Origin: Lentzea tibetensis
GTDB lineage: Bacteria; Actinomycetota; Actinomycetes; Mycobacteriales; Pseudonocardiaceae
DNA length: 64,000 nt
NCBI RefSeq assembly: GCF_007845675.1
Contig: NZ_VOBR01000010.1
Coordinates: 53,520 to 117,519 of the forward strand
Reading direction: 5' to 3'
Positions 17,643-50,869 of this stretch are shown piece by piece; the stretch's first letter is position 1; each line of letters starts with the position of its first letter. The position numbers and the translations under genes were made by a program. A model generated the notes under the pieces. That model worked only from the letters and a program-made list of their open reading frames with translations, had not been told where the DNA came from and searched no databases.

Positions 17643-17940
17643 CTGACGTTCTCCCGTGCTCGGACGTGGTAGTTCCCGGCACAATACTTGCGCTAACAAA
17701 CTATGTCTTGGAGATGTTGCGAGTCTCCTCGCAGTTTGATCACGATCCCACATTGCACATGATCTCGTGACAGTGGTCACCCGTCCAGTTACGGACGGTT
17801 GCACCATGCTGGACGATGAGTGTGGAGTACCCACTGAGACCGATCATGGTCTTTAGCTCCACGGCCGGGTAGATAGCGTTCGTGTCCTTACGTTATCCCC
17901 TCCGAGCCAGCAATACACGTTGCCGGAAAGGTAGTTCGGC
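17643..17940. other. Divergent intergenic region, MarR / GS-like genes
   Basis: No gene is visible. It holds two small dyads: GTGAC-N4-GTCAC (17767-17780) and CCGTCC-N6-GGACGG (17781-17798), which lie next to each other and could be regulator sites. It presumably contains both divergent promoters. The GS-like start is preceded by GGAAAGG. Confidence 0.5.
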
Positions 17941-30064: not shown

Positions 30065-30958
30065 ATGCAGCACTACACGGTCGGTGGACAGGACCACATC
30101 GCCGAGGCGGGCCCCGAGGAGCACGACCTCGACCGGTGGACGAGCGCGCTCGCGGGCATCGAGACGAAGCTCCCGACACCGGAGTACCTGCTGGGCGAGG
30201 ACCCGTTGCGGCACGCGCTGCTCGCCGAGTTCGCGTTCCAGGCCATCGCGGAGGACAAGGCGACGCGCGCGATCACCGCGCTGGTCGCCGAGGCGCCGGA
30301 CAGCGAGACGCTCGAGTTCTACGCGAGCCAGCTCGTCGACGAGGCACGCCACCGCCGCATGTACCGCGAGCACATCCGTGATCTCGGCGTGCCAGCCGAG
30401 CAGCTGGACCAGGTGATCAACCAGTACGCGGAGGCGACCGCCGAGCTGGTGCTCGCGCCGATCGAGCGGTACGGGCTGGAGATGATGGCCCAGCACCAGG
30501 ACTTCTACCGCGGCGTCCTCGTCGTGACCGTGCTCGTCGAGGGCGTCGTCGCGCCGATCACCGAGCTCAGCGAGCGGAAGTGGCGGCCGCTCGACCCCGA
30601 GGCCGGGCGGATCCAGCGGGTCGCCAACCGCGACGAGACGCGGCACCTCGCGGTCGGCGGCACGATCATCCACCGGTACCTCAAGGACAATCCCGACAAG
30701 CGCGAAGGCCTGCTGGACGTCGTGCACGCCGGCCGCGAACTGTGGGACAGCGTCCCGATGGAAGGCCTGCAGCTCATGATGGAGCAGGTGTTCCAGCAGG
30801 GCATGGAACTGCACCGGGACCTCGTCGGCGGCCACGAGATCTGGCCGGGTCGCCGGATGATCGACACGACCCCCGAGGAACGCACCGCGATGGCGAGCCG
30901 GTGGGTGCGGCAGATCCAGGAGGAACGCCTGGAGTACATGATGCTCAGCGACCGATGA
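30065..30958 (+). CDS. VlmB-like ferritin-fold diiron protein
   Basis: 297 residues, helical. The full ferritin-type diiron ligand set is visible: E63 (AIAEDKATR), E93xxH96 (DEARHRRMY), E159 (VLVEGVVAP) and E191xxH194 (DETRHLAVGG). The family is named after VlmB of valanimycin biosynthesis, where diiron proteins act on nitrogen-containing intermediates; related diiron enzymes make azoxy or N-oxidised groups. Here it is probably an oxygenase or oxidase acting on the cluster product. Transcribed away from the LuxR gene; the 3' end overlaps the convergent P450 gene by 14 bases. Confidence 0.82.
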   Translation: MQHYTVGGQDHIAEAGPEEHDLDRWTSALAGIETKLPTPEYLLGEDPLRHALLAEFAFQAIAEDKATRAITALVAEAPDSETLEFYASQLVDEARHRRMYREHIRDLGVPAEQLDQVINQYAEATAELVLAPIERYGLEMMAQHQDFYRGVLVVTVLVEGVVAPITELSERKWRPLDPEAGRIQRVANRDETRHLAVGGTIIHRYLKDNPDKREGLLDVVHAGRELWDSVPMEGLQLMMEQVFQQGMELHRDLVGGHEIWPGRRMIDTTPEERTAMASRWVRQIQEERLEYMMLSDR

Positions 30959-32231
30959 CGGGCATCCGCCGCGCCCCTCGCAGCACGAACGAGTTGTACC
31001 ACTCGACGTCGCCTGCCAGCTCCAGCGAACCGAAGTGCGAGAACACGGACCGGAGCATGATCTCGCCCTCCATCCTGGCGAGCGCGGCACCGAGGCAGAA
31101 ATGGGGCCCCGCGGCGAAAGCGACGTGATCACCGCTGTTGCGCCGGGTGATGTCGAACCGGCCGGGCGACGCGAACACCGCCGGGTCGCGGTTGGCGCCA
31201 CCGAAGAGCACGAGGATCGGCGTGCCCGCCTTGATGCGATGACCGAACATCGAAACGTCCGTGCGCACGGTCCGCAAAGTGCTCTGCGCGGGCGCGTCGT
31301 AGCGCAACGCCTCGTCGACGGCCGCGGCAGCGAGTGAAGGATCAGCGCGCAGCAGAGCGAGTTGGCCGGGATTGCGCACGAACGCGAGAACAGACGTGCC
31401 GATGAAGTTCTTGAGGGTTTCGAATCCGGCGAACAACAACAATTCCACGAGGCCGAGAAGCTCTCGGCGCGACTTGACCACGTCACCCGCCGCTCCCTCC
31501 CCGACCAACCAGCCGACCAAACCTCTCCCTGGAGTGTGGCAGCGGAAATCTAGGAGATGACCGAAGAAATCCTCGACCTCCTCCAGAACCTCGGTCACAT
31601 CGGCGGCCTGTCCCACGCTGCGCACACCATCGGCCGCCTCACCGAGAATCGCACCCCATTTCGCGAGCTTCGGGACGTCCGGATCCGGAACACCGAGGAG
31701 GTCCGCCATCACCAGCGTCGGGAAAGGAACAGCGAAATTCTCGACGAGATCGAATTCCTCACCAATGGGAAGCCGTCTCACCAGGTCGCGGGCGATCCGG
31801 GTCGTCGCCTCCCGGCGCGCCGCAAGCGCTCGCGGGGTGAAGGCACCGGACACCAACCGCCGCAGCCGCGTGTGATCAGGCGCGTCCATACCGATGATGG
31901 AGTCGCGGATCGGGTGCAGCACGTGGTCCGGGAACGCCGCGATCGACGTCGCGCCACCGCCCGCCGCGCCGAGCACCGCGCTGCTGGCATCCGGGTGACG
32001 CACCAGCGCGGACACCACCTCGTGCGAAGCTGTGGCGTAGAAACCGAGCCTGCTGTGGTAAAAGGGCCCGCGTTCACGAATCTCGTCGTACAGCGGGTAA
32101 GGATCCCGCTGCCGTGACGGACGATCCAGTTCCGCGACCAGATCGCCGAATGCCGCAGCGGTTCGCGCGACCATTCGGGTGCCCCACAACGATCCGGCCA
32201 GCTTGAGATCCCGCATCCGTTCTCTGATCAT
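30945..32231 (-). CDS. Cytochrome P450 (stand-alone)
   Basis: 428 residues. Heme-binding loop FAAGPHFCLGAALARME with the ligand at C379, I-helix LLFAGFETLKN, K-helix EALRYDAPA and the Arg of the PERF-like region (GRFDI) are all present, so the enzyme looks active. It belongs to the soluble bacterial CYP type that needs ferredoxin partners, none of which is encoded in the window. Divergent from the aldehyde dehydrogenase gene across an 89-base gap. ATG at 32231 is taken; ATG at 32216 is an alternative. Confidence 0.92.
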   Translation of the reverse strand: MIRERMRDLKLAGSLWGTRMVARTAAAFGDLVAELDRPSRQRDPYPLYDEIRERGPFYHSRLGFYATASHEVVSALVRHPDASSAVLGAAGGGATSIAAFPDHVLHPIRDSIIGMDAPDHTRLRRLVSGAFTPRALAARREATTRIARDLVRRLPIGEEFDLVENFAVPFPTLVMADLLGVPDPDVPKLAKWGAILGEAADGVRSVGQAADVTEVLEEVEDFFGHLLDFRCHTPGRGLVGWLVGEGAAGDVVKSRRELLGLVELLLFAGFETLKNFIGTSVLAFVRNPGQLALLRADPSLAAAAVDEALRYDAPAQSTLRTVRTDVSMFGHRIKAGTPILVLFGGANRDPAVFASPGRFDITRRNSGDHVAFAAGPHFCLGAALARMEGEIMLRSVFSHFGSLELAGDVEWYNSFVLRGARRMPVIGR

Positions 32232-32320
32232 TCTCGGACAGTGCTGCTACCCGGTCGGCGAAGTCAACCCCAACAGTTTCGGGATAGCCGACGAATGCGC
32301 GCGGAATCTACCTTCGAACG

Positions 32321-33898
32321 GTGCGCAGCTATCAGACCTTCATCGGTGGTGAAGACCTACCCGCCGAGAACTGGATTCACGTCATCGCCGCTACGGACCT
32401 GATGGAGAACCCGCTCGCCGGGCTGCGTCTCAAACGCACCCTGGACCGCGGGCTCTCCACCGAGGACACGGGTGCGGTCGCGGGACGCGTCGCCAGGTCG
32501 ACGCCGGAGCAGTGGGCGCGGGCCACCGCGGCGGCCCGTGCCGCGCAGCGCGAGTGGGCCCGCCGTCCGCTGGCGGACCGGCTCGACCTGGGCGCGGCGC
32601 TCCGCGAGATCGTCCACGACCGGCTCGACGAGTTCGTCGACGTCCTCATCGCCGAGGGCCACCCGCGCCGCCTCGCCGAGTGGGAGGTCGCCGGCGTCCT
32701 GCAAGGACTTCAGCCCGAGACCATGACCACGCTCGCCGCGCTGCTGGAACGCGTCGAGCACGTCGGCGGCCGCGAGCTGCGGCTGGTGCGCAAGCCGGAC
32801 GGCGTCGTCTGCTTGAGCCCGCCGCAGAACGCGGCCGCATCCAACTCGATGCTCGGCGTCAGCACGTTGTTCGCGGGCAACGCGATCGTCGTGAAGGCGC
32901 CGCGCAGCTGCCCGCTCGGCGTCGCGTGGGCGTGGCGCGAGCTGGTCGGCGCCGCGTGCGCCGAGGTGAACGCGCCGCCCGGTCTGGTCAACGTCCTCTG
33001 CGGCGACCCGGCGCCGATCATGGACCACTGGCTGGACAGCCCCGACGTGGACACCGTCTTCTACTTCGGCGACAGCAGGCGCGGCATGGAGATCGGCAGG
33101 CGCTGCGCCGTCGTCGGCAAGAAGTCCCTGCTGGAGCTGGCGGGCAACGACGGGCTCGTCGTGTGGGCCGACGCCGAGCTGGACCTCGCCGCGCGGGCGC
33201 TGACCGAGTGCTTCTACGGCTCCAGCCAGATCTGCATGGTGCCCAAGTACGCGGTCGTGCACCCGGACATCGCGGACGACCTGATCGCGCGGGTCGTGAA
33301 GATGCTCGACGACGTGCGGCCGGGACTGCCGGACGACCCGGAAGCCCTGCTCACACCGGTGCTGCGGTCCGGTGACTTCTTCAAGCTCATCGAGGAGTCC
33401 ACCGCGGCGGGCGCCACGCTCGTCGCGGGCGGGCAGCGCACCGACCACACCGGTGAGCTCGACGAGACCGGTGTGTTCCTCCAGCCGACCGTGCTCAGGG
33501 TCGACGGCCTGGCCCGCGCCGACGAGCTGCGGGTCGTGCGCGAGGAGACGTTCTTCCCGCTGCTGCCGATCGTCGTCGCCGACACCGGCGATCTCCAGGC
33601 GATGATCGACTTCATCGACGCCAACCCGTACGGCCTGCGGAACTCGCTGTGGGCGCAGGACCCCGAGGTGATCGACGAGTTCTGCCGCTCGGTGCACAAC
33701 GGCGGCCTGCTCAAGATCAACGACTCGCACCTGGGCTTCGCGCCGACCCTGCCGACGCACGGCGGCACCGGACTGACCGGCGGACCGCACGGCGAGGTCA
33801 ACTTCCCGGCGCTGCGCACGAGCCGGTTGCAGGGCATCAGCATCGCGACCGGCGTCACCCCGCGCGAGAGCATCTTCGACAGCGCGAAGGCCACGTGA
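32321..33898 (+). CDS. Aldehyde dehydrogenase superfamily / acyl-reductase-like protein
   Basis: 525 residues. ALDH-fold motifs: N170 in SPPQNAAASNSM, E272 in LELAGNDGLVV and nucleophile C305 in GSSQICMVPKY. The active-site neighbourhood differs from ordinary fatty aldehyde dehydrogenases, and the context (acyl-AMP ligase, carrier domain, aminotransferase) would also suit an acylating enzyme that reduces a thioester to an aldehyde. The start codon GTG at 32321 lacks a clear ribosome site. The stop overlaps the acyl-CoA dehydrogenase start (TGATG), so four genes follow as a coupled operon. Confidence 0.82.
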   Translation: MRSYQTFIGGEDLPAENWIHVIAATDLMENPLAGLRLKRTLDRGLSTEDTGAVAGRVARSTPEQWARATAAARAAQREWARRPLADRLDLGAALREIVHDRLDEFVDVLIAEGHPRRLAEWEVAGVLQGLQPETMTTLAALLERVEHVGGRELRLVRKPDGVVCLSPPQNAAASNSMLGVSTLFAGNAIVVKAPRSCPLGVAWAWRELVGAACAEVNAPPGLVNVLCGDPAPIMDHWLDSPDVDTVFYFGDSRRGMEIGRRCAVVGKKSLLELAGNDGLVVWADAELDLAARALTECFYGSSQICMVPKYAVVHPDIADDLIARVVKMLDDVRPGLPDDPEALLTPVLRSGDFFKLIEESTAAGATLVAGGQRTDHTGELDETGVFLQPTVLRVDGLARADELRVVREETFFPLLPIVVADTGDLQAMIDFIDANPYGLRNSLWAQDPEVIDEFCRSVHNGGLLKINDSHLGFAPTLPTHGGTGLTGGPHGEVNFPALRTSRLQGISIATGVTPRESIFDSAKAT

Positions 33899-34995
33899 TG
33901 GGGTTCCTCGACCGCGAACGCGAGGCACTCGCGACCGCACTCCCCGGACTCGACGACAAGCTCGTCCACTGCGGACTGACGGCGCTGGAGCAGCCGGTCA
34001 ACCCCGGACTCGGTCTGTTCTCCGACGCGGGCGGACCGGGTCTGCTGGTGCCCGCCGAGCACGGCGGCACCGGCGCGTCGGCGGTCGACGCGGTGCGCTG
34101 CACCAGGGCCATCGGCGCGCGCTCGCCGTCACTCGCGATCGCCGCGACCATGCACAACTTCTCGGTCGCGAGCCTGGTCGCGCTGGCCGAGAGGTCCGAC
34201 GGCTGCGAGTGGATGCTGATCGACGCCGTCGCGAACGACCGGCTGCTCATGTCGAGCGCGTTCGCCGAGGGCCGGTCGGGCCAGAACATCCTGCGCCCGG
34301 CCATGCGCGCCGATCGTCGCGGCGACGCCTGGCTGGTGTCCGGCAGCAAGAAGCCGTGCAGCCTCTCCCGCTCGATGGACCTGCTCACCATGAGCGTCGC
34401 GCTCGACGGCGACGCCCTCGGCATCGCCGTGATCCCCGCGAAGCAGCCGGGGATCGCGGTGCGGCCGTTCTGGAACGGGCTCGTGCTGACCGGCGCGGAG
34501 AGCGACGAGGTCGTGCTCACCGACGTCGAGGTGCCCGACGAGCTGATGGTCCGCCCGGACGGCGCCGACGACGAGCTCCAGGTCATCGGCATGATCTGGT
34601 TCAGCCTGCTGGTCGGCGCGTCCTACCTCGGCGCCGCGTCCGCACTGGCCGCGCGGATGATCGAGGAACGTCGCGGCAGTCCGGACACGAGGGCCGAGGT
34701 GTGCTGGTCGCTCGACACCGCGATGTTCGCGCTGGAACGCGTGGCCGCGCAACTGGACCGGGGCGAGCACGACCTGGCGTCCGCGCTCTCCGCGCGGTAC
34801 GGCACGCAGCAGGTGATCAGCCGGGTGACGCCGACCGCGGTGGAAGCGTTGGGCGGCATGGCCTTCATCGGCTCCCCCGAGGTCGCCTACCTCGCCGCGG
34901 CCACGCACGCGGTCGCGTTCCACCCGCCGTCGCGGACGTCGCTCGCCGGGGCGTTCGACACGTACTTCGCAGGGGGCGCGCTGTGTCTGGGCTGA
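33898..34995 (+). CDS. Acyl-CoA dehydrogenase-like flavoprotein
   Basis: 365 residues. The N-terminal helical part contains LLVPAEHGGTGASAVDAVR, usual for acyl-CoA dehydrogenases; the middle beta domain shows SSAFAEG and WLVSGSKKPCSLSRSMD; the C-terminal helices follow. It is shorter than the family norm of about 380 residues and the catalytic base region is not clearly recognisable. It could desaturate a carrier- or CoA-bound acyl chain in the cluster. Its start overlaps the ALDH stop; its end overlaps a 28-codon ORF. Confidence 0.78.
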   Translation: MGFLDREREALATALPGLDDKLVHCGLTALEQPVNPGLGLFSDAGGPGLLVPAEHGGTGASAVDAVRCTRAIGARSPSLAIAATMHNFSVASLVALAERSDGCEWMLIDAVANDRLLMSSAFAEGRSGQNILRPAMRADRRGDAWLVSGSKKPCSLSRSMDLLTMSVALDGDALGIAVIPAKQPGIAVRPFWNGLVLTGAESDEVVLTDVEVPDELMVRPDGADDELQVIGMIWFSLLVGASYLGAASALAARMIEERRGSPDTRAEVCWSLDTAMFALERVAAQLDRGEHDLASALSARYGTQQVISRVTPTAVEALGGMAFIGSPEVAYLAAATHAVAFHPPSRTSLAGAFDTYFAGGALCLG

Positions 34996-35069
34996 CAGTG
35001 TTGGACGGCACGACCTTCAACGGCTCACCCGAGGTCGCGTACGCGCGGGAGGCACTGTGTCTGGGTTAA
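34983..35069 (+). CDS. 28-codon small ORF between acyl-CoA dehydrogenase and aminotransferase
   Basis: A GTG preceded by AGGGGG opens a 28-residue frame (starts MSGLTVLDGTTFNG, ends REALCLG) that overlaps the preceding stop by 13 bases and the aminotransferase start by 13 bases. Its first residues copy the aminotransferase N terminus (MSGLTLFE) and its last residues copy the dehydrogenase C terminus (GGALCLG), so it may be a duplicated gene junction. GSPEVAY also occurs within the dehydrogenase. It may be a translational-coupling relic or a real peptide; no homologue is recognised. Confidence 0.4.
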   Translation: MSGLTVLDGTTFNGSPEVAYAREALCLG

Positions 35070-36271
35070 CGTTGTTCGAGCGGCACCTGAGCTCCGCGCG
35101 CGCCGCGATGTCGCGGATGTTCGACGACCACGAGGAGGTGCGCTCGGAGGGCGCGCTCGTGTGGGCCGCGGACGGCACGGAGTTCCTGAACTGCGCGGGG
35201 TACGGCGTGTTCCTGCTCGGCGCCCGCCACCCGCGCGTCGCGCAGGCGGTGATCGACCAGGTGGTCAGGCACCCGCTCTCCACCCGCATCCTGCTGGAGC
35301 CCACCAGCGCGCACGCCGCGTCGGTCCTCGCGGACGTCTGCCCGCCCGGACTGTCCAAAGTGCACTTCGCGGGCTCCGGCGCCGAAGCCACCGAGGCCGC
35401 GATCAAACTAGCGAGGGCGCACGGCATCCGGCGCCTGGTCAGCTGCACCAACGGGTACCACGGCAAGACGCTGGGCGCCTTGAGCGTCACCGCGAGGGAC
35501 GTCTACCAAGCACCGTTCCGCCCCCTGCTGCCGGACGTGGTCACCGTGCCGTTCGGTGACGTGGTCGCGCTCGCGGACGTGCTGTCCGACGGCGTGCCGT
35601 CGTGCTTCATCGTCGAACCCGTGCAGGGCGAGGGCGGCGTGATCGTCCCGCCGTCCAGCTACCTCAGCGACGTCGAACGGTTGTGCCGCGAGCACGGCGC
35701 GTTCCTCGTGGTCGACGAGATCCTCACCGGGCTCGGCAGGCTGGGCCGCTGGTGGGGCTGCGGCGACGTGACGCCGGACGTCCTGCTGGTGGGCAAGGCG
35801 TTGAGCGGCGGCATCGTGCCGGTGTCCGCGGCCGTGTGCACGCCCGAGGCGTACCTGCCGTTCGACAAGGACCCGTTCCTGCACACCTCGACGTTCGCCG
35901 CCGCGCCGATCGCGGTCGCCGCCGCGCGGGCCGCCGTCGAGGCGATCATCGTGGACGACCTGGTCCCGCGCGCCGCGGCCATCGGCTCGTTCCTGCTCAA
36001 GTCGTTGCGGGACAGCGCGAACCGGCACTGCCCGGACGTCGTGCGCGACGTGCGCGGCGAGGGCCTGCTGATCGGCGTCGAGCTGGTCGACGCGGGGTTC
36101 ACCGGCGAGTTGCTGCTCGCGTTGCTCGACGAGCAGGTGCTGGTCAACCACTCGCTCAACAACTCGGCGGTGCTGCGGCTGACCCCGCCGGCAGTGCTCA
36201 CCGACGCGCAGGCCTCACGGATCGGTGCCGCGTTCGACGCGGCTTTCGCACAGCTGGCGAGGAGGGTCTGA
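35057..36271 (+). CDS. Class III PLP-dependent aminotransferase
   Basis: 404 residues. PLP lysine K247 in DVLLVGKALSGGIVPVSA; D220 in FLVVDEILTGLGRLG; phosphate-binding SGAEATEAAIKLAR; substrate loop CTNGYHGKTLGALS. This is the ornithine/acetylornithine/omega-amino acid class. In the cluster it is a good candidate for turning an aldehyde or keto group into an amine. The GTG at 35057 follows GGGAGG. The stop overlaps the next gene's start (TGATG). Confidence 0.93.
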   Translation: MSGLTLFERHLSSARAAMSRMFDDHEEVRSEGALVWAADGTEFLNCAGYGVFLLGARHPRVAQAVIDQVVRHPLSTRILLEPTSAHAASVLADVCPPGLSKVHFAGSGAEATEAAIKLARAHGIRRLVSCTNGYHGKTLGALSVTARDVYQAPFRPLLPDVVTVPFGDVVALADVLSDGVPSCFIVEPVQGEGGVIVPPSSYLSDVERLCREHGAFLVVDEILTGLGRLGRWWGCGDVTPDVLLVGKALSGGIVPVSAAVCTPEAYLPFDKDPFLHTSTFAAAPIAVAAARAAVEAIIVDDLVPRAAAIGSFLLKSLRDSANRHCPDVVRDVRGEGLLIGVELVDAGFTGELLLALLDEQVLVNHSLNNSAVLRLTPPAVLTDAQASRIGAAFDAAFAQLARRV

Positions 36272-36750
36272 TGCACGCGACCGAGTTCTCGGCGATCGTC
36301 ACCGGACGCAGCACCGACGAGGTGTTCGACACCGTGGCGGACTTCGCCCGCTACCCCGACCTGGTGGACGCGGTGGTGTCCGTCGAGGTCCTGCCGCCGC
36401 AGGAGGACGGCGCGATCCCGTCGCACTGGGAAGTGCTGTTCCGCAAGGGAGTTCTGCGCTGGTCGGAGGAAGACCTGCTGGACCGGGAGAACGGGGTGAT
36501 CACGTTCACCCAGACCGACGGCGACTTCGACGTGTTCGAAGGGGGCTGGGAGATCACCGCGGCACCCGAAGGCGTCGCGCTGACGTTCCGCGCCAAGTTC
36601 GACTTCGGCGTGCCCAGCATGGCGAGCATCATCGACCCGGTCGCCGGTCGCGTCCTGCTGGAGAACCTGGGCCTGATCGTGCGCGGCCTGTTCTCCCCCG
36701 ACTCGGTCCGGATCACCAGGGCCGAGCACGGGTCACCAGCGCAGGTGTAG
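36271..36750 (+). CDS. SRPBCC (START-fold) protein, COQ10/cyclase-like
   Basis: 159 residues. The helix-grip fold is suggested by STDEVFDTVADFARYPDLVDAVVSVEVL at the start, a long beta sheet in the middle (WEVLFRKGVLRWSEEDLL; GVITFTQTDGDFDVFEGGWEI) and a C-terminal helix (RVLLENLGLIVRGLF). These proteins bind hydrophobic ligands and include polyketide cyclases and quinone-binding proteins. No polyketide synthase is present, so it more likely binds the acyl intermediate or product. Translationally coupled to the aminotransferase (GGAGGG before ATG); overlaps the fusion gene tail-to-tail by 18 bases. Confidence 0.85.
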   Translation: MHATEFSAIVTGRSTDEVFDTVADFARYPDLVDAVVSVEVLPPQEDGAIPSHWEVLFRKGVLRWSEEDLLDRENGVITFTQTDGDFDVFEGGWEITAAPEGVALTFRAKFDFGVPSMASIIDPVAGRVLLENLGLIVRGLFSPDSVRITRAEHGSPAQV

Positions 36751-39700
36751 CGACTCCAGCCCGCGCAGCGCAGGGTCCGGCCGGAACACCGGCGCCGGCG
36801 CGTCCGGGTCCAGCCGCAGGTGCGGGAACCTCCGCGCCAGCATGGGGAACAGGATCTGCCCCTCCATGCGGCCCAGCGCGGCGCCGATGCAGAAGTGGAT
36901 GCCGGACCCGAACGTCAGGTGCGTGACAGCGGAGGCCCGCCTCAGGTCCAGCCGGTCCGGCTCCTCGTACTGCGCCGGGTCGCGGTTGGCGGCACCGAGC
37001 ACCGGGAAGATCAGCTCGCCGGCGCGGATGAGCCGTCCGGCGACCTCGATGTCCTCGGTCGCCAGCTGCGGCGTGATGATCGGCGCCGGGCTGTCGTACC
37101 GCAGCAGTTCCTCCGCGGCGGTGACCGCGATCGACGGATCCTCGCGCAGCAGCGCGAACTGGTCGGGGTGGCGCAGCAGGGCGAGGGTGCCGTTGCCGAT
37201 CCAGTTCGCCGTCGTCTCCAGCCCCGCGTTGATCAACGCGATGACGTTGACGATCAGCTCCTCGTCGCTCTCCCACCGCCCGCGCTCGCCGAACAGGTCA
37301 CCCGTGTCGTCCGCGGCGGCCAGCTGCTCGGACATCAGGTCGTCGCCGGGGTTCGCCCGCTTGACCGCGATCAGCCCGTGCAGGTACTCGACGAGCGAGT
37401 CCATGGCGGCGCTGGACAACGCGGCGACCGCGATCGGGTCGTCGCCGAACTGCGCCTCGCCGAGCGTCTTCATGACGTCGACGCCCCACCGCATCAGCTC
37501 GGCGTGGTCCGCGCGCGGCACGCCGACGAGGTCCATCACGACCCGCGACGGGAACGGGTAGGCGACCTGCGTCATGAAGTCGCCACCGCGGAAGTCGTCG
37601 AGCAGTTCCGCGCACGTCCGCTCGACGACGTCGTGCCGCTGCCGCATGGCGCGCGGCGTGAAGCTGCGGTTCATCAGCTTGCGCAGCCGCGTGTGCGACG
37701 GCCGGTTGCTGAACGGCAGGCTGGCGTCCATCCGCCGGATGAACGGGTTCATCGACGCGAGAACGTCCTCCGGCAGCCGGGTCAGCAACGTCTCGGTCGA
37801 CGGGCGCACCACGGTCGGCCTGCGCAGCACGTCGGTCACCTCGGCGTACCGGGTGAGCACCCAGCCGTCCAGCGCCTCGTCGCGGTAGACCGGGGCGAGG
37901 TCCCTGAGCAGGTCGTAGAAGGGGTACGGGTCGGCGAGGAAGTCCGGGTTCATCGGGTTGATGTGGATGGACGCCTCGACGTTGAGCTGCCTCGGCGGCG
38001 GTGGCGCGGGGATCTTCGCGATCGCGCCCAGCACCGCGTTCGCCAGTGCCGTGAGCGACGGCGGCACCAGCGCGTTGAAGTGGTCGCCCGGCACGTGCAC
38101 GACCTCGAGCTCGCCGGTCCTGACGCGCTCCCAGCCGTTCGCCGGGTCGTCGAGGTGCAGCTCGATGTGCCGGTCGTCCTTGAGCACCTGCGGGAAACCG
38201 CCGTCGGCCTTGACGAGCGTGATCTTGAGGTCGGACGGCGGCGGCTCGTACCGCACGATCGCCTCCACCTGCGCCTGGTAGACGCGCATGATGTTCGCGA
38301 TGTGCTCCTCCACCGGCAGGGTGCCGCTCGCACCGAGGAACCGGCCGAGCTGCTCGCGTCGCTCGGCGGGAGACAGCGACTGGTCGACGCGGCGGCGCGG
38401 GGCGTCCTCGTCGCGGAACGCGTGCTGCCGGATCGTCCACAGCTCGTCGATGATCGCCATCTCGTCCCACGGCGGCTCGTACTGGCCGGGCACCGCGGGG
38501 TAGGAGTCGATCATGATCACGCGCGCCACCTGCTCGCCGCGCGCCCGCAGCTGCCTGCCCACCTCGTACGCGACGATGCCGCCGAACGAGTGTCCGCCGA
38601 TGACGTACGGGCCGTACGGCTGGATCAGCTTGATCTCGTCGATGTACCGCGCCGCCAGGAGCTCCACCTCGTCGACCGGTTCCTCGGTGCCGTCGAAACC
38701 CGGTCCCTGCAGGCCGATGAACGGCTGACCCTGTCCCATCGCGCGGGCCAGCGGCAGCAGGTAGTACGCCGCGCCGACCGCGCCGCCGATGCAGAAGAAC
38801 GGGCGCTGCGGCGTGAGCGACAGCGCGAGCTTCGGCTGCCGCTGCACGACGACCTCGGGTTCCTCGGCGGAAACCCGTTGCGCGGCCAGGTACTCGGCCA
38901 TCGCGTCCACTGTGGGCAGTTCGAGGAACAGCGTGTGCGGCACGCGGAAACCCAGCCAGTCCGACAGCGCCGACTGCAGGGTGGCGATCGACAACGACTC
39001 CAGGCCGAGCGAGCTCAGCTGCGCGTCCGCGCGGATCGACCGCGGCGGCACCCGCAGCTCCAGCGCGACGTGCTCCAGCAGCCACTCGCGGATCGTCGTC
39101 GCGTCGATCTGCGCGCGCCGCGGCGTGCCGTCGCGGAAGAAGCGGTCCACCACGTCACGCGCGTACGCCATGGCGCACTCGACGAGCTCGAACGCCGGGA
39201 GGCTGCCCACGTGGTAGGTGTGCCGCTGGCCCTGCAGCAGCTCGATCCGGTCGAGCACGCCGTCGGCCAGCTGCTCCCCCGTGAAGTGCGGCATGAACCT
39301 CCACCCGCGCTGCACGTGCGGCGACCGCACCTCGCCACCCATGGCCGCCACGTCGTCGCGCAGCTGCTCGGACACGTCGAGGCCCTCGTAGCCGTCGACG
39401 CCGTCCAGCTCGTCGGCGCCGTAGGAGTAGCAGGCGTAGACGTCGCTGTCTTCGTAGCGGTGGTGGAACGACACGCAGTGCCCGGCGTGCTCCGACGACG
39501 CGGTGTGCTTCTCCAGCAACGAGAACGCCGAACGCGGCAGGCCGTCGGCCGAGCACATCGTGGTGTAGTAGTCGAGGTAGCGGACCTGGCGCGCGAGGTC
39601 GCGTTCCTCCTCGGTCGCGTCCAGCGCGGGCAGCACCTGGTCGATCGGCACGGTCAGCACGAGCGCGTCCGCCTCGATCACCTCGTGGTCCACGCGGATC

Positions 39701-40386
39701 CGCACGCCGTGCTCGTGGCGTTCGACGTGCTCGACGCGCACCCCGCACCGGACGTCCCGCAGCTGCGCGGCGACGCGGTGCCACAGCGAGCCGAAGCCGC
39801 CCTTGATCGTGAAGCTGCCCGCGTGGCCGAGCAGGTCGCGCGTGCTGGAGAGCAGGCCGGTCATCTCGGCGTACTTCACGAAGTACAGCGCGGGGATGTC
39901 GCGGTCGAGGTAGCCGTAACCCGCGGCGGTGTAGCCGGTGCCGAGCGACTCGGCCATCTCCTCCAGCCGGTGCTCGCGCAGCCACTCCCCGACCGGCCTG
40001 CTGAGCGCCTTCGCCGAGTGCGCCAGTCCGGGTTCACCGATGTGCGGGAACTCCGCGGCGCGCAGCTTGGTGTAGCGCTGGAAGACCTCGCGGGTGAAGA
40101 ACGCCGAGCTCTGCGGGCGCGACCGCGTGCCGTCGAACACCCGGTGCGGCGTCGTGGGTTCGGTCTCCATGCCCAGCTCGGTGACGAGCTCGGCGAGCCG
40201 CTCGTACTTCGTCGTGCAGACGTGGCCGCCGAGGTCGTAGGCGTGGCCGTCGATCTCGACCGACGCGCACTTGCCCGCGATGGTCTTCGCCTGCTCCAGC
40301 ACGATGACGCGGTGCCCCGCGTTCTCGAGCTCGCGGGCGGTCATCAGGCCGCTGACGCCGGCACCGATCACGCAGATCGTCCTCAC
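36733..40386 (-). CDS. Four-domain fusion: FAD oxidoreductase - acyl carrier - thioesterase - cytochrome P450
   Basis: 1217 residues. Residues 1-420: FAD/NAD(P)-binding oxidoreductase with dinucleotide motif VIGAGVSGLMTARELENAG, then VIVLEQ and YDLGGHV, like amine oxidase/protoporphyrinogen oxidase enzymes. Residues 428-503: acyl/peptidyl carrier domain with pantetheine serine S464 in SLGLESLS. Residues 525-790: type I thioesterase with S600 in GGHSFGG, D627 and H769 (PGDHF). Residues 805-1217: P450 with I-helix INAGLETTAN and heme ligand C1166 in FGSGIHFCIG. All catalytic residues look intact. The GTG start overlaps the acyl-AMP ligase stop (GTGA), so the ligase is its likely loading partner. 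I know no described enzyme with this order. Confidence 0.9.
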   Translation of the reverse strand: MRTICVIGAGVSGLMTARELENAGHRVIVLEQAKTIAGKCASVEIDGHAYDLGGHVCTTKYERLAELVTELGMETEPTTPHRVFDGTRSRPQSSAFFTREVFQRYTKLRAAEFPHIGEPGLAHSAKALSRPVGEWLREHRLEEMAESLGTGYTAAGYGYLDRDIPALYFVKYAEMTGLLSSTRDLLGHAGSFTIKGGFGSLWHRVAAQLRDVRCGVRVEHVERHEHGVRIRVDHEVIEADALVLTVPIDQVLPALDATEEERDLARQVRYLDYYTTMCSADGLPRSAFSLLEKHTASSEHAGHCVSFHHRYEDSDVYACYSYGADELDGVDGYEGLDVSEQLRDDVAAMGGEVRSPHVQRGWRFMPHFTGEQLADGVLDRIELLQGQRHTYHVGSLPAFELVECAMAYARDVVDRFFRDGTPRRAQIDATTIREWLLEHVALELRVPPRSIRADAQLSSLGLESLSIATLQSALSDWLGFRVPHTLFLELPTVDAMAEYLAAQRVSAEEPEVVVQRQPKLALSLTPQRPFFCIGGAVGAAYYLLPLARAMGQGQPFIGLQGPGFDGTEEPVDEVELLAARYIDEIKLIQPYGPYVIGGHSFGGIVAYEVGRQLRARGEQVARVIMIDSYPAVPGQYEPPWDEMAIIDELWTIRQHAFRDEDAPRRRVDQSLSPAERREQLGRFLGASGTLPVEEHIANIMRVYQAQVEAIVRYEPPPSDLKITLVKADGGFPQVLKDDRHIELHLDDPANGWERVRTGELEVVHVPGDHFNALVPPSLTALANAVLGAIAKIPAPPPPRQLNVEASIHINPMNPDFLADPYPFYDLLRDLAPVYRDEALDGWVLTRYAEVTDVLRRPTVVRPSTETLLTRLPEDVLASMNPFIRRMDASLPFSNRPSHTRLRKLMNRSFTPRAMRQRHDVVERTCAELLDDFRGGDFMTQVAYPFPSRVVMDLVGVPRADHAELMRWGVDVMKTLGEAQFGDDPIAVAALSSAAMDSLVEYLHGLIAVKRANPGDDLMSEQLAAADDTGDLFGERGRWESDEELIVNVIALINAGLETTANWIGNGTLALLRHPDQFALLREDPSIAVTAAEELLRYDSPAPIITPQLATEDIEVAGRLIRAGELIFPVLGAANRDPAQYEEPDRLDLRRASAVTHLTFGSGIHFCIGAALGRMEGQILFPMLARRFPHLRLDPDAPAPVFRPDPALRGLESLHLRW

Positions 40387-42089
40387 ACCGACACCCCCTC
40401 GACGTACGCTTGGCGGCACGCGCGACGGCGAACCTTGCCGCTGGTGGTCTTGAGCACGAGTCCCTGTCTGCCGACGAGCACGTCGTCGCAGGCGAGCTGG
40501 TGCGTGGTGTAGAGCCGCCTGCGGACCGCGTCGGCGATCTCCGCGCGCAGCTCGTCGTCCGCCTTCTTCTCGTTGCACTCCACGAAGATGACGAGCCGTT
40601 CGCCGTCGTCGCCGGACACGCTGAACGACGCGAGACCACCGGGCCGGATGCCGGGGTGGCTGTCGCGGACGGCGTCCTCGATGTCCTCGGGGTAGAAGTT
40701 GCGGCCGTTGACGATGATCACGTCCTTGTGCCGCCCGGTGATGAACAGCTCGCCTTCGTGCAGGAAGCCGAGGTCACCGGTGCGCAGGTACGGGGTGTCG
40801 TCGCCGTCGACTCGGGCGTGGAACGCGCGCCGCGTCTCCTCGTCGAGCCCGTGGTAGCCGAGCGCCTTGGTGCCCGAGCTGACCCACACCTCGCCGACCT
40901 GGTCCGGCCCGCACGGCAGCAGGCTCTCCGGGTCGACGATGCGGATGCGGCCGTCCGGCTTGGTCATCCGGCCGCAGCCGACGAGGCGCGTGCCGTTCTC
41001 GGTGATCTTCACGTTGCCCGCGCGCAGTGCGACGGGGTCCAGTGACAGCACGAGCTTGCCGCCCATGGAGACGCTCACCGTGTGCTCGGCCAGTCCGTAC
41101 GCGGGGTAGAAGCTGTCCCGGCGCAGGCCGGTCGGGCCGAACGCGGTGTAGAAGGCGTCCACCGTGGCCGCGCGGATCGGTTCCGCGGCCGACATGACGA
41201 CGCGGAGTGCGCTGAGGTCCCACTCGGCGCGCTGCGCGGGCGTCGTCTTGCGGACGGCCAGGTCGAACGCGAAGTTCGGCGCCGCGGTGTGCGTGGCTTT
41301 CACCCGTGACATCACGTCGAACCAGACGGACGGGTGCTGCAGGAACGTCAACGGTGACAGGACGTAGGTGTGGCCGTTGCCGGCGAGCGTGCTGAGGATG
41401 ACGCTGATCAGGCCGAGGTCGTGGTACTGCGGCACCCAGAAGACACCGCGCGTGCCGTCGCCGAGGCCCAGGTCGGTGGCGTTGGTGCGGACCTCCTGGC
41501 TGAGGTTCCCATGGGTGATCACCACGCCCTTGGGCGCCGAGGTGGAGCCGGAGGTGTACTGCAGGAGCGCGGGTTCGTCGGCGCTGCTGGGCTCGTGCCA
41601 CTCGAACGGCGCACCGGCCGGCCTGCACCTGTCCGTGCGGTGCCAGCGCAACCGCGGCCACGAGGGCTTGCTCCGGTCGAACAGGCCGGTCACGGCACCG
41701 ACCGTGCGCGCGCGGTCGTAGGCCGAGTTGGTGAGCACCGCGTGCGGCTCGCTGCTCTCGACGATCCCGTTGAACCCCACCAGGTCCTGCTTGAGGCGCA
41801 CCGGGTTCGGCGGGTACACGGGCACGGGCACGACGCCGGCGAGCAGGCAGCCGACGAGTGCGCGCACGAAGTCCGGGCCGGGCGGGTAGACGAGCACCGC
41901 CCGGTCGCCGGGCTGGAAGCCCCACGCCCGCAGGGACGCCGCGATCGTGGCCGCCGAGTCCGCCAACCCGGCGACGGTGATCGTTTCCTCGTCCCTGCCC
42001 CGGTCGTCCACGAACGTGAACATCGGACGGGCGGGCTCGCGGTCGCACAACACCCGGAATGAGGAGAGCAGCGAATTGCTTGTTTTCAT
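40383..42089 (-). CDS. Fatty acyl-AMP ligase (FAAL)
   Basis: 568 residues. Adenylate-forming motifs: LLQYTSGSTSAPKGVVITHGNL, YGLAEHTV, and YLRTGDLGFLHEGELFITGRHKDVIIVNGRNFYPEDIE. The wording SAPKGV and the PNFAFDLAVRK region are typical of fatty acyl-AMP ligases, which pass acyl adenylates to carrier proteins rather than to CoA. No carrier domain is attached; the four-base overlap with the fusion gene points to its carrier domain as acceptor. A C-terminal extension is short (LKTTSGKVRRRACR). Length is normal. Confidence 0.93.
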   Translation of the reverse strand: MKTSNSLLSSFRVLCDREPARPMFTFVDDRGRDEETITVAGLADSAATIAASLRAWGFQPGDRAVLVYPPGPDFVRALVGCLLAGVVPVPVYPPNPVRLKQDLVGFNGIVESSEPHAVLTNSAYDRARTVGAVTGLFDRSKPSWPRLRWHRTDRCRPAGAPFEWHEPSSADEPALLQYTSGSTSAPKGVVITHGNLSQEVRTNATDLGLGDGTRGVFWVPQYHDLGLISVILSTLAGNGHTYVLSPLTFLQHPSVWFDVMSRVKATHTAAPNFAFDLAVRKTTPAQRAEWDLSALRVVMSAAEPIRAATVDAFYTAFGPTGLRRDSFYPAYGLAEHTVSVSMGGKLVLSLDPVALRAGNVKITENGTRLVGCGRMTKPDGRIRIVDPESLLPCGPDQVGEVWVSSGTKALGYHGLDEETRRAFHARVDGDDTPYLRTGDLGFLHEGELFITGRHKDVIIVNGRNFYPEDIEDAVRDSHPGIRPGGLASFSVSGDDGERLVIFVECNEKKADDELRAEIADAVRRRLYTTHQLACDDVLVGRQGLVLKTTSGKVRRRACRQAYVEGVSV

Positions 42090-43290
42090 CTGAAGCCCGA
42101 TCCGTCAGACCGTAGAACAACGAGACACAGACGAAAGCAACGTCTGGAGCTTTTGGCACGGCGACGGTAGCAACCGGTTCTGAGCAGTCAAAGCCTCCGC
42201 TTCCAGAACGCTCCCGCACTGTTACCGTTCGACCGCTCGGCGCACCGGAAAGCACTGGCCGATGCCAGACAGGAATCTTGACTTCTGCACCGGTGCTCAA
42301 TCCTCAACTCGGTTGTGGCGTCGAAAGGAATCAACACCCTGTCGATTCGCTGTCAACGCTCTGAACTGCAGATATACAGGTCGCCGTACTCCGAACGGCC
42401 CATTCAGCGGATTCGTTTGATTACAAAGCATCAGTTCGATGCGGCCTTGCGGGCATATTGGAATGCGCCGAAATGAGACATCCAATGTCCGTTCAACCGC
42501 TCGTCGCTGCACGCCTTCCAATTGAGACGACGAGTGGCCGATGGATACATGCCGAGACGGGCAGCCGACCTCTGGGTGTGATTGCGCAGAAAACTAGTCG
42601 CTTGTCAATGTCGGCGAGATGCCTTCCGATTCACGGTGTGGATGCATTTGTCCGCACCGGACGTCGAATGGTCCCAAATAACTCGTTCGGCCCACTCGCC
42701 GCCACCGACCGCGTCCCCGGCGCGACGGCTGGGCCGACCGGGTGAAAGAGATCATCGCGCGCGATCATCCGGCGCGAGTGACGAGGGTTCACCCTAGCGA
42801 AATCCTGTATGAACCCGAACGACTGATGTTCGAACGTGAACAGCGCGAGAGTGACTACGTACGCGAAGACCTGACGGTTCAAAAGAGGGAAGACGACAGT
42901 TCTTTCGGTTACTCCTGATTCAATGCACTCACCATGCGATCTCGGACACACCGAATCGGCCCAATCGAGCCGATCACACGTTCCACCAGGCGGTCCAGTG
43001 CTGGCACAAACCGACAAGACGTCGGGCAAAACCGACGCTTCGTCGGTTCTGAGCATTTCCCGCACGTCGGCATATCGGGCGGCCAGTTGAGACAAGGACC
43101 TATTGAGACGAATTGCTCGGGCGATTGACCGGCCAGCCTGGTGTCAGGCAACATCATTGCGCTGGACCGATGCGGCCGACCGCTGCCCGATCCGCCGACA
43201 ATGGTGCGTTTCACGTAGTGGAGAGAATGTCCGCCTTTGTCCTCACCAGCCGCAGCGGTCCACCTGGTGCAGCACGATCGGGAGGCAACC
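42090..43290. other. 1.2-kb region without a recognisable gene
   Basis: Codon-position GC bias is weak on both strands and base composition is more even than in the flanking genes. Short frames exist on both strands but none has a ribosome site plus a recognisable domain. It holds a 12-base palindrome ATCGCGCGCGAT (42754-42765) and a hairpin at 43030-43048. The FAAL promoter should lie at its left end. It may be decayed coding DNA at the cluster edge. Confidence 0.5.
43030..43048 (-). terminator. Hairpin with T-run on the minus strand
   Basis: AACCGACG-CTT-CGTCGGTT gives an eight-base-pair stem with a three-base loop; read on the minus strand it is followed by TTTT. No gene is recognised upstream of it on that strand, which supports loss of a former gene. 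Confidence 0.45.
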
Positions 43291-43578
43291 GTGGACCAGG
43301 CACTGGACGCCCTGCGTGACCGCCTGGCGGAGATCGTGGCGTCCCCGCCTGAGAACTCCGAAGACCTGGTGGAAACCCTCGCTGGCCTCGCCAAGCTCTC
43401 CAACCAGTGGTCCGAGGCGATCCAGGCGCTGCGCGCCCCCACGAGACGCCTGGTCGGCCCCGCTGCCGCCGCGTCCGTGAGCGTGGCCGCGCGCCGTGCC
43501 GAGGAGTCGTTCATCGAGCTGGAGATCACTCTCGGTGACGCGTTGGCCGCACAGCCGCGCGTGATCCGGCAGCCCTAG
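43291..43578 (+). CDS. Small helical protein of unknown function
   Basis: 95 residues, no family recognised. The GTG at 43291 has GGGAGG five bases upstream, which decides the start. The sequence (MDQALDALRDRLAEIVASPPENSEDLVETLAGLAKLSNQW) looks all-helical and acidic, with no membrane helix, signal or cysteine. High third-position GC supports real coding. It lies alone between the gene-free region and the LytTR operon. Confidence 0.6.
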   Translation: MDQALDALRDRLAEIVASPPENSEDLVETLAGLAKLSNQWSEAIQALRAPTRRLVGPAAAASVSVAARRAEESFIELEITLGDALAAQPRVIRQP

Positions 43579-43901
43579 CTCTTTTCCGGCACTGATCAGC
43601 CCCCTGCACTCTGGGTGAGCCGTACCCGATCGATCCCGTGCTGAGACACACCCGATCGGAGGTTCCCGGACATCCTCCGGCTGGCGGATGATGCGCCCGA
43701 TCAAGGTCGTTGAGACGGGCGGGAGGTCGCAACCGTGCGTGGGCGCACCCCAGCTCCCAGTCACCCTCCGTGAGGGTGGATGATCTCGTACCCGATCATC
43801 GTCGGCTCCCGAGAATCCTCTCGCCGCGCACGACCGGACCTCTCGTGGTCTAATCGCCGCCACGTGAGGATCGGCCGTAAAACGTTTGGACTCGATCTCG
43901 A
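43579..43901. other. Upstream region of LytTR operon
   Basis: No gene seen. It carries four copies of CCCGATC (see separate entry) and a hairpin CACCCTC-CGT-GAGGGTG (43762-43778) that could terminate the preceding small gene. The response regulator promoter should be here. Confidence 0.5.
43624..43797. repeat. CCCGATC direct repeats upstream of LytTR operon
   Basis: CCCGATC occurs at about 43625, 43651, 43696 and 43791. The first two are extended to ACCCGATCG and lie 26 bases apart. Repeated direct elements of this kind upstream of a response-regulator gene may be binding sites of the LytTR protein itself. Confidence 0.4.
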
Positions 43902-44804
43902 ATGACCTCAGGTCTGCCCTGCCCCGTGTGCGAGGGGCCAGATCGACGTGGCAGCCTCGAGCGCTCCCTGCGGGTGCTCGCAGTTGACGACGAGGCGCCC
44001 GCGTTGGAAGACCTCGTGTACCTGCTGCGCTCAGACCCGCGCATCGCCCACGTGGAAGCCGTCACCGACGCGACGAAGGCGCTGCGCGTGCTGCACCGCG
44101 CCATGGACGCCGGCCAGCCGCTCGACGCGGTCTTCCTCGACATCCGCATGCCCGGACTGGACGGACTCGACCTGGCCCGCGTGCTCTCGCGCTTCGCGCA
44201 GCCGCCGCCCGTCGTCTTCGTCACCGCGCACCAGCAGCCCGCCGTCGAGGCGTTCGAGCTGAAGGCGCTCGACTACCTGCTCAAGCCCGTGCGCGCGGAA
44301 CGGCTCGCCGAGTCGGTGCACCGCATCGTGCACGAGGTGTGGGACAGCAAGACCCCCGCCGAACCGACGCAGACCTCAGCCGCGCAGCAGACCGCGCCGC
44401 CCGAGGTCGGCGACGAGGTCATCCCGGTCGAGCTCGGCGGCGTCACCCGGTTCATCCGGCTCGCCGACATCCGCTACGTCGAGGCGCACGGCGACTACGC
44501 CCGCCTGCACACCGCGACCGGCAGCGGGCTCGTCCGCGCCGCGCTCAACGGACTCGAGGAACGGTGGCGCTCGGCGGGTTTCGTGCGCATCCACCGCAGC
44601 CACCTGGTGTCGCTCGGCCACATCGACGAGCTGCGGCTCGAAGACGGCCACCTGAGCGTCACGATCGGCGGTGCAGTGCTGCCGGTGTCCCGCAGGCACG
44701 CCCGGCACCTGCGGCAGCTGCTGGTGCGCAGGGCGCGGCCGATGATCCAGAACCAGGGTGGCGTGCCCGCCGCACCGCAACCCAGGAACGGAATCGGTTC
44801 GTGA
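43902..44804 (+). CDS. LytTR-family response regulator
   Basis: 300 residues. The receiver domain (about 22-145) has the acidic pocket VLAVDDEAPALEDL, phosphoacceptor D80 in VFLDIRMPGLDGLDL and K128 in YLLKPV. A linker leads to a LytTR DNA-binding domain (about 175-280): IRLADIRYVEAHGDYARLHT, FVRIHRSHLVSLGHI. An unusual N-terminal stretch CPVCEGP precedes the receiver. It heads an operon with a DUF485-type protein, a symporter and a histidine kinase, a set in which the pair senses and controls uptake of the transported solute. Confidence 0.93.
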   Translation: MTSGLPCPVCEGPDRRGSLERSLRVLAVDDEAPALEDLVYLLRSDPRIAHVEAVTDATKALRVLHRAMDAGQPLDAVFLDIRMPGLDGLDLARVLSRFAQPPPVVFVTAHQQPAVEAFELKALDYLLKPVRAERLAESVHRIVHEVWDSKTPAEPTQTSAAQQTAPPEVGDEVIPVELGGVTRFIRLADIRYVEAHGDYARLHTATGSGLVRAALNGLEERWRSAGFVRIHRSHLVSLGHIDELRLEDGHLSVTIGGAVLPVSRRHARHLRQLLVRRARPMIQNQGGVPAAPQPRNGIGS

Positions 44805-49812: not shown

Positions 49813-50044
49813 TGGGGTCCTCCGCCAGGACATCTACCATCAGGTGACTGCGATCACAGTAGGAACGGCGCGAGGAAATAGGTAAGTACGTAGGCCAACT
49901 CAGGCGACGAGCGGATTGGGTATCGCGGCACGTGGTCGGGCGAACTGAGACGAGTGGACCGCCATCTGCGACGAACGGATGGGCGGTCGTTTCCCGTCAA
50001 ACGCCACTGGTTCGTGACACGGGGTGCCGGATAGGGTCCGCAGC

Positions 50045-50869
50045 GTGAAGCTTTGGGCCACCAGCGACCTCCACGTCTCTTACCAGGACAACCGTCATGT
50101 TGTCGAGGAGATGCGGTCGTCGTCGACCGGCGACTGGTTGATCATCGCCGGGGACATCGGCGAGAAGTTCACCGACATCGAGTGGACGCTCGAGACGCTG
50201 CGCCCCCGTTTCGACACGGTCGTCTGGTCGCCGGGCAACCACGAGCTGTGGACGACGAAGGACGACGCGAACCAGTCGCGCGGCGAGGTCCGCTACAAGC
50301 AGCTGGTCGAACTGTGCCGCAGCATCGACGTGGTGACGCCCGAGGACCCGTACCGCGTGTTCACCGGTGACGGCGGCCCGGTCACCGTGTGCCCGCTGTT
50401 CGTCGGCTACGACTACACGTGGCGTCCGGAGGGCACGCACGACGAGGAGTCCGCGCTGAAGGCGGCCCACGAGGCGGGCGTGGTGTGCACCGACGAGTAC
50501 TTCCTGCACCCGGACCCGTACCCGTCGCGCGCCGCGTGGTGCGCCGCACGGGCCGCGGAGACCGAACGCAGGCTGTCCGAGGTGCGCCCCGACATCCCGA
50601 CCGTGCTGATCAACCACTACCCGCTCGTGCGCGACCCCACGTTCATCCTGCACTACCCGGAGTTCGCACTGTGGTGCGGAACCGACCTCACCGCGGACTG
50701 GCACGTCCGGTTCCGCGTGAAGGAGATGGTGTACGGGCACCTGCACGTTCCGCGAACGACGCACCACGACGGCGTCCGGTTCGACGAGGTGTCACTCGGC
50801 TACCCGCGCGAGTGGAAACCGCGCGGCACCCGGCAGAAGCTGCTGCACGACGTGCTCCGGGAGTCATAG
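50045..50869 (+). CDS. Metallophosphoesterase
   Basis: 274 residues. All calcineurin-type metal motifs are present: TSDLHVSY (DxH), IAGDIGE, SPGNHELW (GNHE), LINHYPLV and YGHLHVPR (GHLH). A two-metal phosphoesterase is therefore expected; the substrate is unknown. The following phosphopantetheinyl transferase gene starts at the next base, a pairing common in actinobacteria, which suggests a role linked to carrier-protein or cofactor metabolism. Confidence 0.93.
   Translation: MKLWATSDLHVSYQDNRHVVEEMRSSSTGDWLIIAGDIGEKFTDIEWTLETLRPRFDTVVWSPGNHELWTTKDDANQSRGEVRYKQLVELCRSIDVVTPEDPYRVFTGDGGPVTVCPLFVGYDYTWRPEGTHDEESALKAAHEAGVVCTDEYFLHPDPYPSRAAWCAARAAETERRLSEVRPDIPTVLINHYPLVRDPTFILHYPEFALWCGTDLTADWHVRFRVKEMVYGHLHVPRTTHHDGVRFDEVSLGYPREWKPRGTRQKLLHDVLRES

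Follow-up and report, generated by a model that had tools for sequence, protein, structure and literature searches.

What would an actinomycete do with a single protein that joins a flavin domain, an acyl carrier domain, a thioesterase and a cytochrome P450? The question is raised by a gene pair in a 64,000-nucleotide stretch of Lentzea tibetensis DNA (contig NZ_VOBR01000010.1 of assembly GCF_007845675.1; hereafter the window), in which this four-domain megaenzyme is encoded directly after a putative fatty acyl-AMP ligase (FAAL). We found that the flavin adenine dinucleotide (FAD) domain is closest to a polyunsaturated fatty acid (PUFA) isomerase and that genes or remnants of a PUFA synthase adjoin part of the related pairs. 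These results point, with modest confidence, to a fatty-acid tailoring line.

The megaenzyme and its acyl-AMP ligase

The features of the pair are as follows.

36733..40386, minus strand: megaenzyme of four domains, 1217 amino acids, with a GTG start and a four-base overlap with the FAAL stop
39112..40386, minus strand: FAD domain, PUFA isomerase-like, residues 1-425 (phmmer, profile and Foldseek)
38857..39111, minus strand: acyl carrier domain, residues 426-510 (Pfam 434-500), with Ser464 (PP-binding, 6.4e-13)
38059..38802, minus strand: type I thioesterase domain, residues 529-776, with S600/D627/H769 (Pfam Thioesterase, 7e-33)
36736..37941, minus strand: cytochrome P450 domain, about residues 816-1217, with heme Cys1166 (Pfam p450, 8.7e-21)
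40383..42089, minus strand: FAAL, 568 amino acids (Pfam AMP-binding and AMP-dom_DIP2-like; NCBIfam and PDB matches)

The megaenzyme is one open frame of 1217 codons on the minus strand; it starts with a GTG at 40386 and ends with the stop codon at 36733. It matched Pfam Amino_oxidase (residues 11-362), PP-binding (434-500), Thioesterase (529-776) and p450 (1040-1190), which is the domain order that the original prediction, made from the letters alone, had given. Its claim that ketosynthase, condensation and adenylation domains are missing agrees with the Pfam matches of the protein, none of which belongs to these families, and S464, S600, D627, H769 and C1166 were all found at the places it had named. 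Ser464 of the carrier and the triad S600/D627/H769 were identical in all eight aligned rows, and the triad lies in an alpha/beta hydrolase behind the carrier, as in a type I thioesterase. Cys1166 was kept in each of the seven aligned rows that have a P450 domain. This domain also contains an ExxR motif (ELLR, 1093) and an I-helix AGLET (1054) with an acid-alcohol pair, and its nearest PDB chains were bacterial P450s. The thioesterase matched the NCBIfam model of Pks13, far under that model's whole-protein cut-off. The predicted overlap of the FAAL stop with the megaenzyme start was located in the GTGA at 40383-40386; a longer form of 1281 amino acids starting at 40578, present in the list of open reading frames, was rejected, as its extra N-terminal stretch falls within the FAAL gene.

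A reading-frame break between the domains, on which the original prediction could have foundered, was looked for and not found. The same four-domain order was unbroken in a paralogue of the same genome and in relatives from other genomes, and the ratio of nonsynonymous to synonymous substitution rates (dN/dS) was 0.26 between the megaenzyme and its closest orthologue (L009), with the thioesterase and FAD domains the most constrained parts and the carrier and linkers the least. Since the domain order is maintained and selection is purifying, a frame error appears unlikely; the megaenzyme is real and conserved.

The first domain had been labelled a generic flavin oxidoreductase. Searching all of the PDB with phmmer, we found that it matched entry 2b9w with an E value of 1.2e-33 over residues 4-417, the next match being 2.9e-13 over residues 4-247, and a profile of the domain built from 15 relatives gave 5.7e-54 for 2b9w and 1.1e-21 for the runner-up. 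The entry is titled "putative aminooxidase" in the sequence set and "CLA-producing fatty acid isomerase from P. acnes" (CLA, conjugated linoleic acid) in the structure set. An AlphaFold2 model of the domain had a mean pLDDT (per-residue confidence) of 76.8 and a pTM (predicted template modelling score) of 0.83, with much of residues 151-189 below a pLDDT of 50. Foldseek with this model returned 2b9w as the first match at a TM (template modelling) score of 0.84, with ranks 2-10 at 0.63-0.73. By sequence and by predicted fold, the domain is thus closer to the Propionibacterium acnes isomerase (PAI) than to amine oxidases, and "fatty acid isomerase-like" seems better supported than "oxidoreductase". 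In the available portion of PMC13365329, linoleic acid is given as a substrate of the P. acnes enzyme. The megaenzyme domain matches it over its full length; unlike PAI, a single-domain chain of 424 residues, it is fused to a carrier, a thioesterase and a P450.

The best NCBIfam match of the FAAL was a fatty-acid-AMP ligase subfamily; ranks 1 and 3-7 were acyl-AMP ligases and rank 2 was a nonribosomal peptide synthetase/polyketide synthase model, all under their curated cut-offs. Its PDB matches included FadD23, FadD28, FadD32 and a "Fatty Acyl-Adenylate Ligase", and the top two carried the names "Polyketide synthase" and "Saframycin Mx1 synthetase B". The best matches were thus acyl-AMP rather than acyl-CoA ligases. 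Going by its family, the enzyme should activate a fatty acid and transfer it to the carrier domain, and its gene lies directly upstream of the megaenzyme gene in 12 of 14 distinct loci, the exceptions being L010 and L033.

Relatives of the pair, their added domains and the PUFA synthase genes

These 14 loci are the window, L009, L010, L039, L040, L041, L002, L014, L011, L012, L013, L031, L033 and L066. Each was seen over a limited stretch, in which "none seen" does not amount to absence. Loci that cover the same places again (L001, L038, L043, L044, L045, L059, L060, L062, L064 and L065), a P450 piece at a contig edge (L042) and loci with the FAD domain only, namely 21 of Streptomyces and those of genomes G285 and G318, fall outside the count.

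A scan of contigs gave 29 loci that match the megaenzyme. Full-length matches came from Lentzea sp. NBRC 105346 (three loci), Micromonospora sp. CB01531 and Amycolatopsis xylanica; Streptomyces phyllanthi matched without the P450, and the matches of Actinorugispora endophytica and Streptomyces sp. cf386 were shorter. The other 21 are Streptomyces loci in which nothing matched beyond residue 434. We treat these FAD-only homologues (within L015-L037, about 55-62% identical) as a branch of their own. On visual inspection limited to the sequence starts, their recurring neighbourhood looks like Gfo/Idh/MocA-type and transporter genes. The window's own genome (G000) has a further full-length match on contig C13, the paralogue, with 56% identity and one extra domain in front. 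Among 100 related genomes, six matched the megaenzyme at 1e-150 (G000, G004, G013, G018, G019 and G024), all of one genus, the match in G019 being a P450 piece at a contig end. Among 394 genomes of the class, five (G000 included) had a match at 1e-90 to the FAD-carrier-thioesterase part, which in two was confined to the FAD part. In a plasmid search, none of 1496 matching records had a single place covering 80% of the query.

The exact FAD-carrier-thioesterase-P450 protein was unbroken in 5 of the 14 loci (the window, L009, L010, L039 and L040). One further four-domain locus, that of G013 (L041/L044), has its P450 part split across two frames, through decay or an assembly error. Other relatives carry an added N-terminal domain. 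A heme-like domain precedes the four domains in frame in L002, L012 and L014, precedes FAD, carrier and thioesterase domains in L013 (S. phyllanthi), and precedes FAD and carrier domains only in L031 and L066; in L033, it lies in another frame and the match to the thioesterase is truncated. The Micromonospora locus (L011, 9563-9985) has in its place a domain of the OsmC/Ohr type that contains cysteines at 56, 109 and 119; fatty acid hydroperoxides are among the substrates of this family. The added domain shared one stop-free frame with the FAD domain in all seven relatives checked (six heme-like, one Ohr). Possible start codons near the FAD boundary were present in five of the seven and absent from L013 and L031, and separate translation of the added domain may occur in part of the relatives. 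A predicted model of the two domains plus carrier of L012 had a mean pLDDT of 46.5 and was not used. In a tree of 21 FAD domains, rooted for drawing only and with several forks unsure, the four-domain group of the window branches among groups with the heme-like domain, a placement that suggests loss of this domain.

We compared the added heme-like domain with solved structures. The domain of L002 matched coral allene oxide synthase at 3.3e-31, two coral entries being the only PDB hits up to an E value of 0.1, and a profile of seven rows gave 5e-44 for the coral enzyme versus 2.7e-10 for 3e4w and 2e-9 for catalases. The Pfam Catalase model was reached by L002, L012 and L033, and not by L013 or L031. 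In the available text of PMC5617202, the coral enzyme has the heme ligand Tyr353 and the distal residues His67, Asn137 and Thr66, and its family acts on fatty acid hydroperoxides. Equivalents of Tyr353 and Asn137 were present in seven of seven rows and of His67 in six (Arg in L033), and an arginine near the heme tyrosine is conserved, but Thr66 is replaced by phenylalanine in all seven. The domain therefore lacks the residue set of an allene oxide synthase and is not assigned as one; it is a catalase-related heme domain by sequence and might act as a catalase-related hydroperoxidase. The coral enzyme (1u5u/3dy5) is by far the best match for this domain of the relatives only, the window protein having none. 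In the coral, the enzyme is joined to a lipoxygenase, whereas a lipoxygenase search of G000 and G024 gave no match in either genome, a weak result as the control genomes were equally silent.

The loci were also examined for PUFA synthase genes. Such genes stand beside the pair in 6 of the 14 loci: L009 (=L054), L002 (=L050), L014 (=L052), L011, L012 and L013. PfaD, PfaA and PfaC were all seen in L050, L052 and L054, the PfaD and PfaA calls of L052 resting on gene starts that resemble those of L050, and the stretches of L011, L012 and L013 end within the set. By Pfam, the PfaD-like protein of L050 is nitronate-monooxygenase-like with a FabD-type helical insert, its PfaA-like protein comprises a ketosynthase (KS), an acyltransferase (AT), five carriers, a ketoreductase and a dehydratase, and its PfaC-like protein is KS-AT-like with four FabA stretches. 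Remnants were found in three further loci (PfaA in G018 and G013, PfaC in the window). The window itself thus has no PUFA synthase cluster, only a PfaC remnant next to the pair.

42736..42864, plus strand: PfaC remnant, about 44 C-terminal amino acids, at the deletion site (59% identity to PfaC of L054, E 7e-9)
42593..42748, no strand assigned: deletion junction, about 15.6 kb missing (PfaD, PfaA and nearly all of PfaC; blastn versus L054)

The remnant scored 54.3 bits, versus at most 25.8 with 200 shuffled queries. By blastn, window positions 42090-42593 correspond to 681-1183 of L054 (67%) and 42748-43902 to 16790-17913 (85%), so that the deletion is clean relative to this orthologous locus. 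Because the tail of PfaC remains at the junction, loss of the synthase from the window appears likelier than its gain in the relative. The genome of the window retains one PfaC match, beside the C13 paralogue. A PfaC match was present in two of ten genomes searched, G000 and G024; none came from G018, G004, G013 and G019, which carry the megaenzyme or fragments of it. The dN/dS was 0.22 between the megaenzymes of G018 and G004. The pair seems to outlive its synthase.

Proposed pathway and alternative readings

We infer the substrate, the chemistry, the order of steps and the product of the pathway as follows, and we lean towards this scheme with some reserve. The pair would be a fatty-acid tailoring line, with loading by the FAAL, isomerase-like rearrangement, oxygenation by the P450 and release by the thioesterase. 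Judging from its family, the FAAL would activate an unsaturated fatty acid as acyl-AMP and load it on the phosphopantetheine arm at Ser464. The FAD domain, going by its sequence and predicted fold, would shift double bonds, most likely turning a methylene-interrupted into a conjugated diene. The P450 would then hydroxylate or epoxidise the chain, and the thioesterase would release it, either hydrolytically or onto an acceptor. In the orthologue and several relatives, the adjoining PUFA synthase could supply the chain; in the window, where the synthase was lost, it could come from the synthase on contig C13 or from the cell's own lipids.

This reading rests on domain identities, conservation and adjacency that were observed directly: the match of the FAD domain to 2b9w, the family and position of the FAAL, the PUFA synthase genes or remnants beside the pair, the added domains from hydroperoxide-acting families and the purifying selection between G018 and G004. 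It also rests on the layout in genome G455, where a FAAL accompanies a heme-like-FAD-carrier protein and a P450 (only 29% identical) and an acyl-CoA thioesterase of another family are separate nearby genes, which fits all four activities sharing one pathway. The original prediction had proposed a self-contained line in which the flavin and heme domains both oxidise a tethered acid. Its FAAL-loaded, carrier-based modification with a thioesterase of its own stands; "self-contained" was incomplete, given the synthase genes or remnants at nine loci, and double oxidation is no longer the simplest reading, as the structure closest to the FAD domain is that of an enzyme isomerising fatty acid double bonds.

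Several observations weigh against the isomerising line. The FAD domain is only 24% identical to 2b9w in the model alignment, and at this distance a changed reaction (oxidase or desaturase) is conceivable. Arg88 and Phe193 of PAI, which we take to be substrate-site residues, align with R82 of the megaenzyme, where the arginine is invariant in 15 of 15 rows, and with Ser181 in a weakly aligned region. If Arg88 binds the substrate carboxylate, the conserved R82 speaks against isomerisation on the carrier, and isomerisation may precede carrier loading. The P. acnes isomerase takes the free acid, and the proposed substrate is tethered. No synthase genes were seen in the stretches examined of L010, L040 (L057), L031, L033 and L066, five of the 14 loci. 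Among the 394 genomes of the class, 12 matched PfaC at 1e-100 (G000 included) and five matched the FAD domain, and only G000 had both; the PfaC-like genes of the class are mostly away from the pair.

The product might instead be an acyl group that is passed to another assembly line, or that the thioesterase moves onto an acceptor in the manner of the Pks13 thioesterase, with no free lipid made. FAALs often feed other assembly lines, and the weak match of the thioesterase to the Pks13 model lies in the same direction, so this outcome is possible, although we would not expect it: the window genes scanned beside the pair matched neither condensation nor ketosynthase families, and the shared neighbours examined are of other kinds (PIG-L-type, MDMPI-type and two-component genes).

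An elaboration that we entertain only tentatively is a bacterial oxylipin line that is free of lipoxygenase and centred on one protein. Here the PUFA synthase would provide the chain and the FAAL would load it; the FAD domain would remove a bis-allylic hydride and open the pentadienyl system to oxygen, in the five-domain relatives, the catalase-related heme domain (in one of them an Ohr-type reductase) would process the hydroperoxide so formed, and the P450 would finish the chain before release. The form in the window would be a streamlined one that lost the heme domain and the synthase.

It is equally doubtful that the FAD domain is an oxygen-using oxidase or desaturase, which would add double bonds to the tethered chain and make hydrogen peroxide, with further oxidation by the P450. 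The domain belongs to the amine-oxidase superfamily, its fold matches below the first rank are largely oxidases, and the catalase-like or OsmC/Ohr domains of the relatives could remove peroxide. However, among solved structures an isomerase is by far its closest relative, and the four-domain form of the window has no peroxide-handling domain.

We consider it unlikely that the pair in the window is a relic without a role after the loss of its PUFA synthase. The clean deletion would suit such decay, as would a synthase that is reduced or unseen elsewhere in the genus (G018, G013 and G004). Compared with more distant copies, the dN/dS of the window protein was higher (0.35 for L039, 0.39 for L040 and 0.46 for L043), and the ratio to L009 may reflect older selection. 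Against a relic, the frames and catalytic residues are intact, and the ratios were low both versus L009 and between G018 and G004. A true amine oxidase, making or breaking acyl amines with the nearby class III aminotransferase (35057-36271), is very improbable despite the Pfam name Amino_oxidase, as the fold most resembles that of a fatty acid isomerase and the aminotransferase is unlinked, being absent at E 1e-110 from the five other megaenzyme genomes (G004, G013, G018, G019 and G024) and present in G014, which has no megaenzyme.

The tailoring line that we favour was compared with known systems. In FAAL-carrier lines such as jamaicamide JamABC and those of bacterial polyynes, a fatty acid is likewise placed on a carrier by a FAAL and modified there before it is released or passed on; those lines use membrane desaturases or acetylenases, whereas the carrier protein of the window itself includes an isomerase-like flavin domain and a P450. 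FadD32-Pks13, which serves mycolic acid synthesis, also pairs a FAAL with a carrier protein ending in a type I thioesterase-like domain, but the megaenzyme is without a ketosynthase and other domains flank its carrier and thioesterase. PUFA synthases (pfaABCD) and pfa-like lipid clusters share with our loci the PfaD-, PfaA- and PfaC-like genes that adjoin relatives of the pair; they differ in that the window lost its synthase and in that no FAAL with an isomerase-carrier-thioesterase-P450 protein is described in the available portions of PMC3098273 and PMC13291983. PUFA-synthase-like genes or clusters, some of them in Streptomyces, appear in PMC13291983, PMC12964715, PMC3098273 and PMC4675949, and such a partner is not in the clusters as given in the accessible parts of these four papers.

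Each domain comes from a known family, and their joined order and tie to a PUFA synthase are, as far as searched, undescribed: no publication on the combination was found in the open-licence literature, most subscription journals lying outside the scope of the search, and the earlier statement that no enzyme of this order had been described was not contradicted there. If the scheme holds, actinomycetes use a flavin isomerase to modify unsaturated fatty acids on a carrier protein; to our knowledge, this chemistry has been described only for fatty acids without carrier attachment. The PUFA synthase genes beside several relatives of the megaenzyme suggest a bacterial route to modified fatty acids that has yet to be studied. 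With two genes, the pair is small enough for direct expression and assay, and the relatives with an allene-oxide-synthase-like or Ohr domain offer a natural series for the order of the steps.

Other genes in the window and at related loci

A set of genes on the plus strand at 30065-36750 encodes a ribonucleotide-reductase-small-chain-like protein, an aldehyde dehydrogenase, an acyl-CoA dehydrogenase-like protein, the class III aminotransferase and a protein of 174 amino acids, with a P450 gene on the opposite strand. As part of the system, it was rejected on the distribution of the aminotransferase, the only member tested, which was searched in 61 genomes.

After the megaenzyme of G018 (L055:14418-15918 and L058:6951-7700) come a PIG-L-type gene, which recurs in G013, and an MDMPI-type gene, which recurs in G019; neither was found in the window. 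Two-component genes lie beside L012 and L014. About 8 kb from the FAAL, the plus-strand gene at 50024-50869 has a 60% identical relative beside the Actinorugispora FAAL (L031:5265-6074), perhaps by coincidence. Elsewhere in the window, two adjacent large proteins encoded on the plus strand at 21788-26238 gave weak AAA/NB-ARC and TPR matches and are regulator- or defence-like, and a GH95-like glycosidase (11771-14059) and a GH5 cellulase with fn3 and CBM6 domains (54245-55930) were also found.

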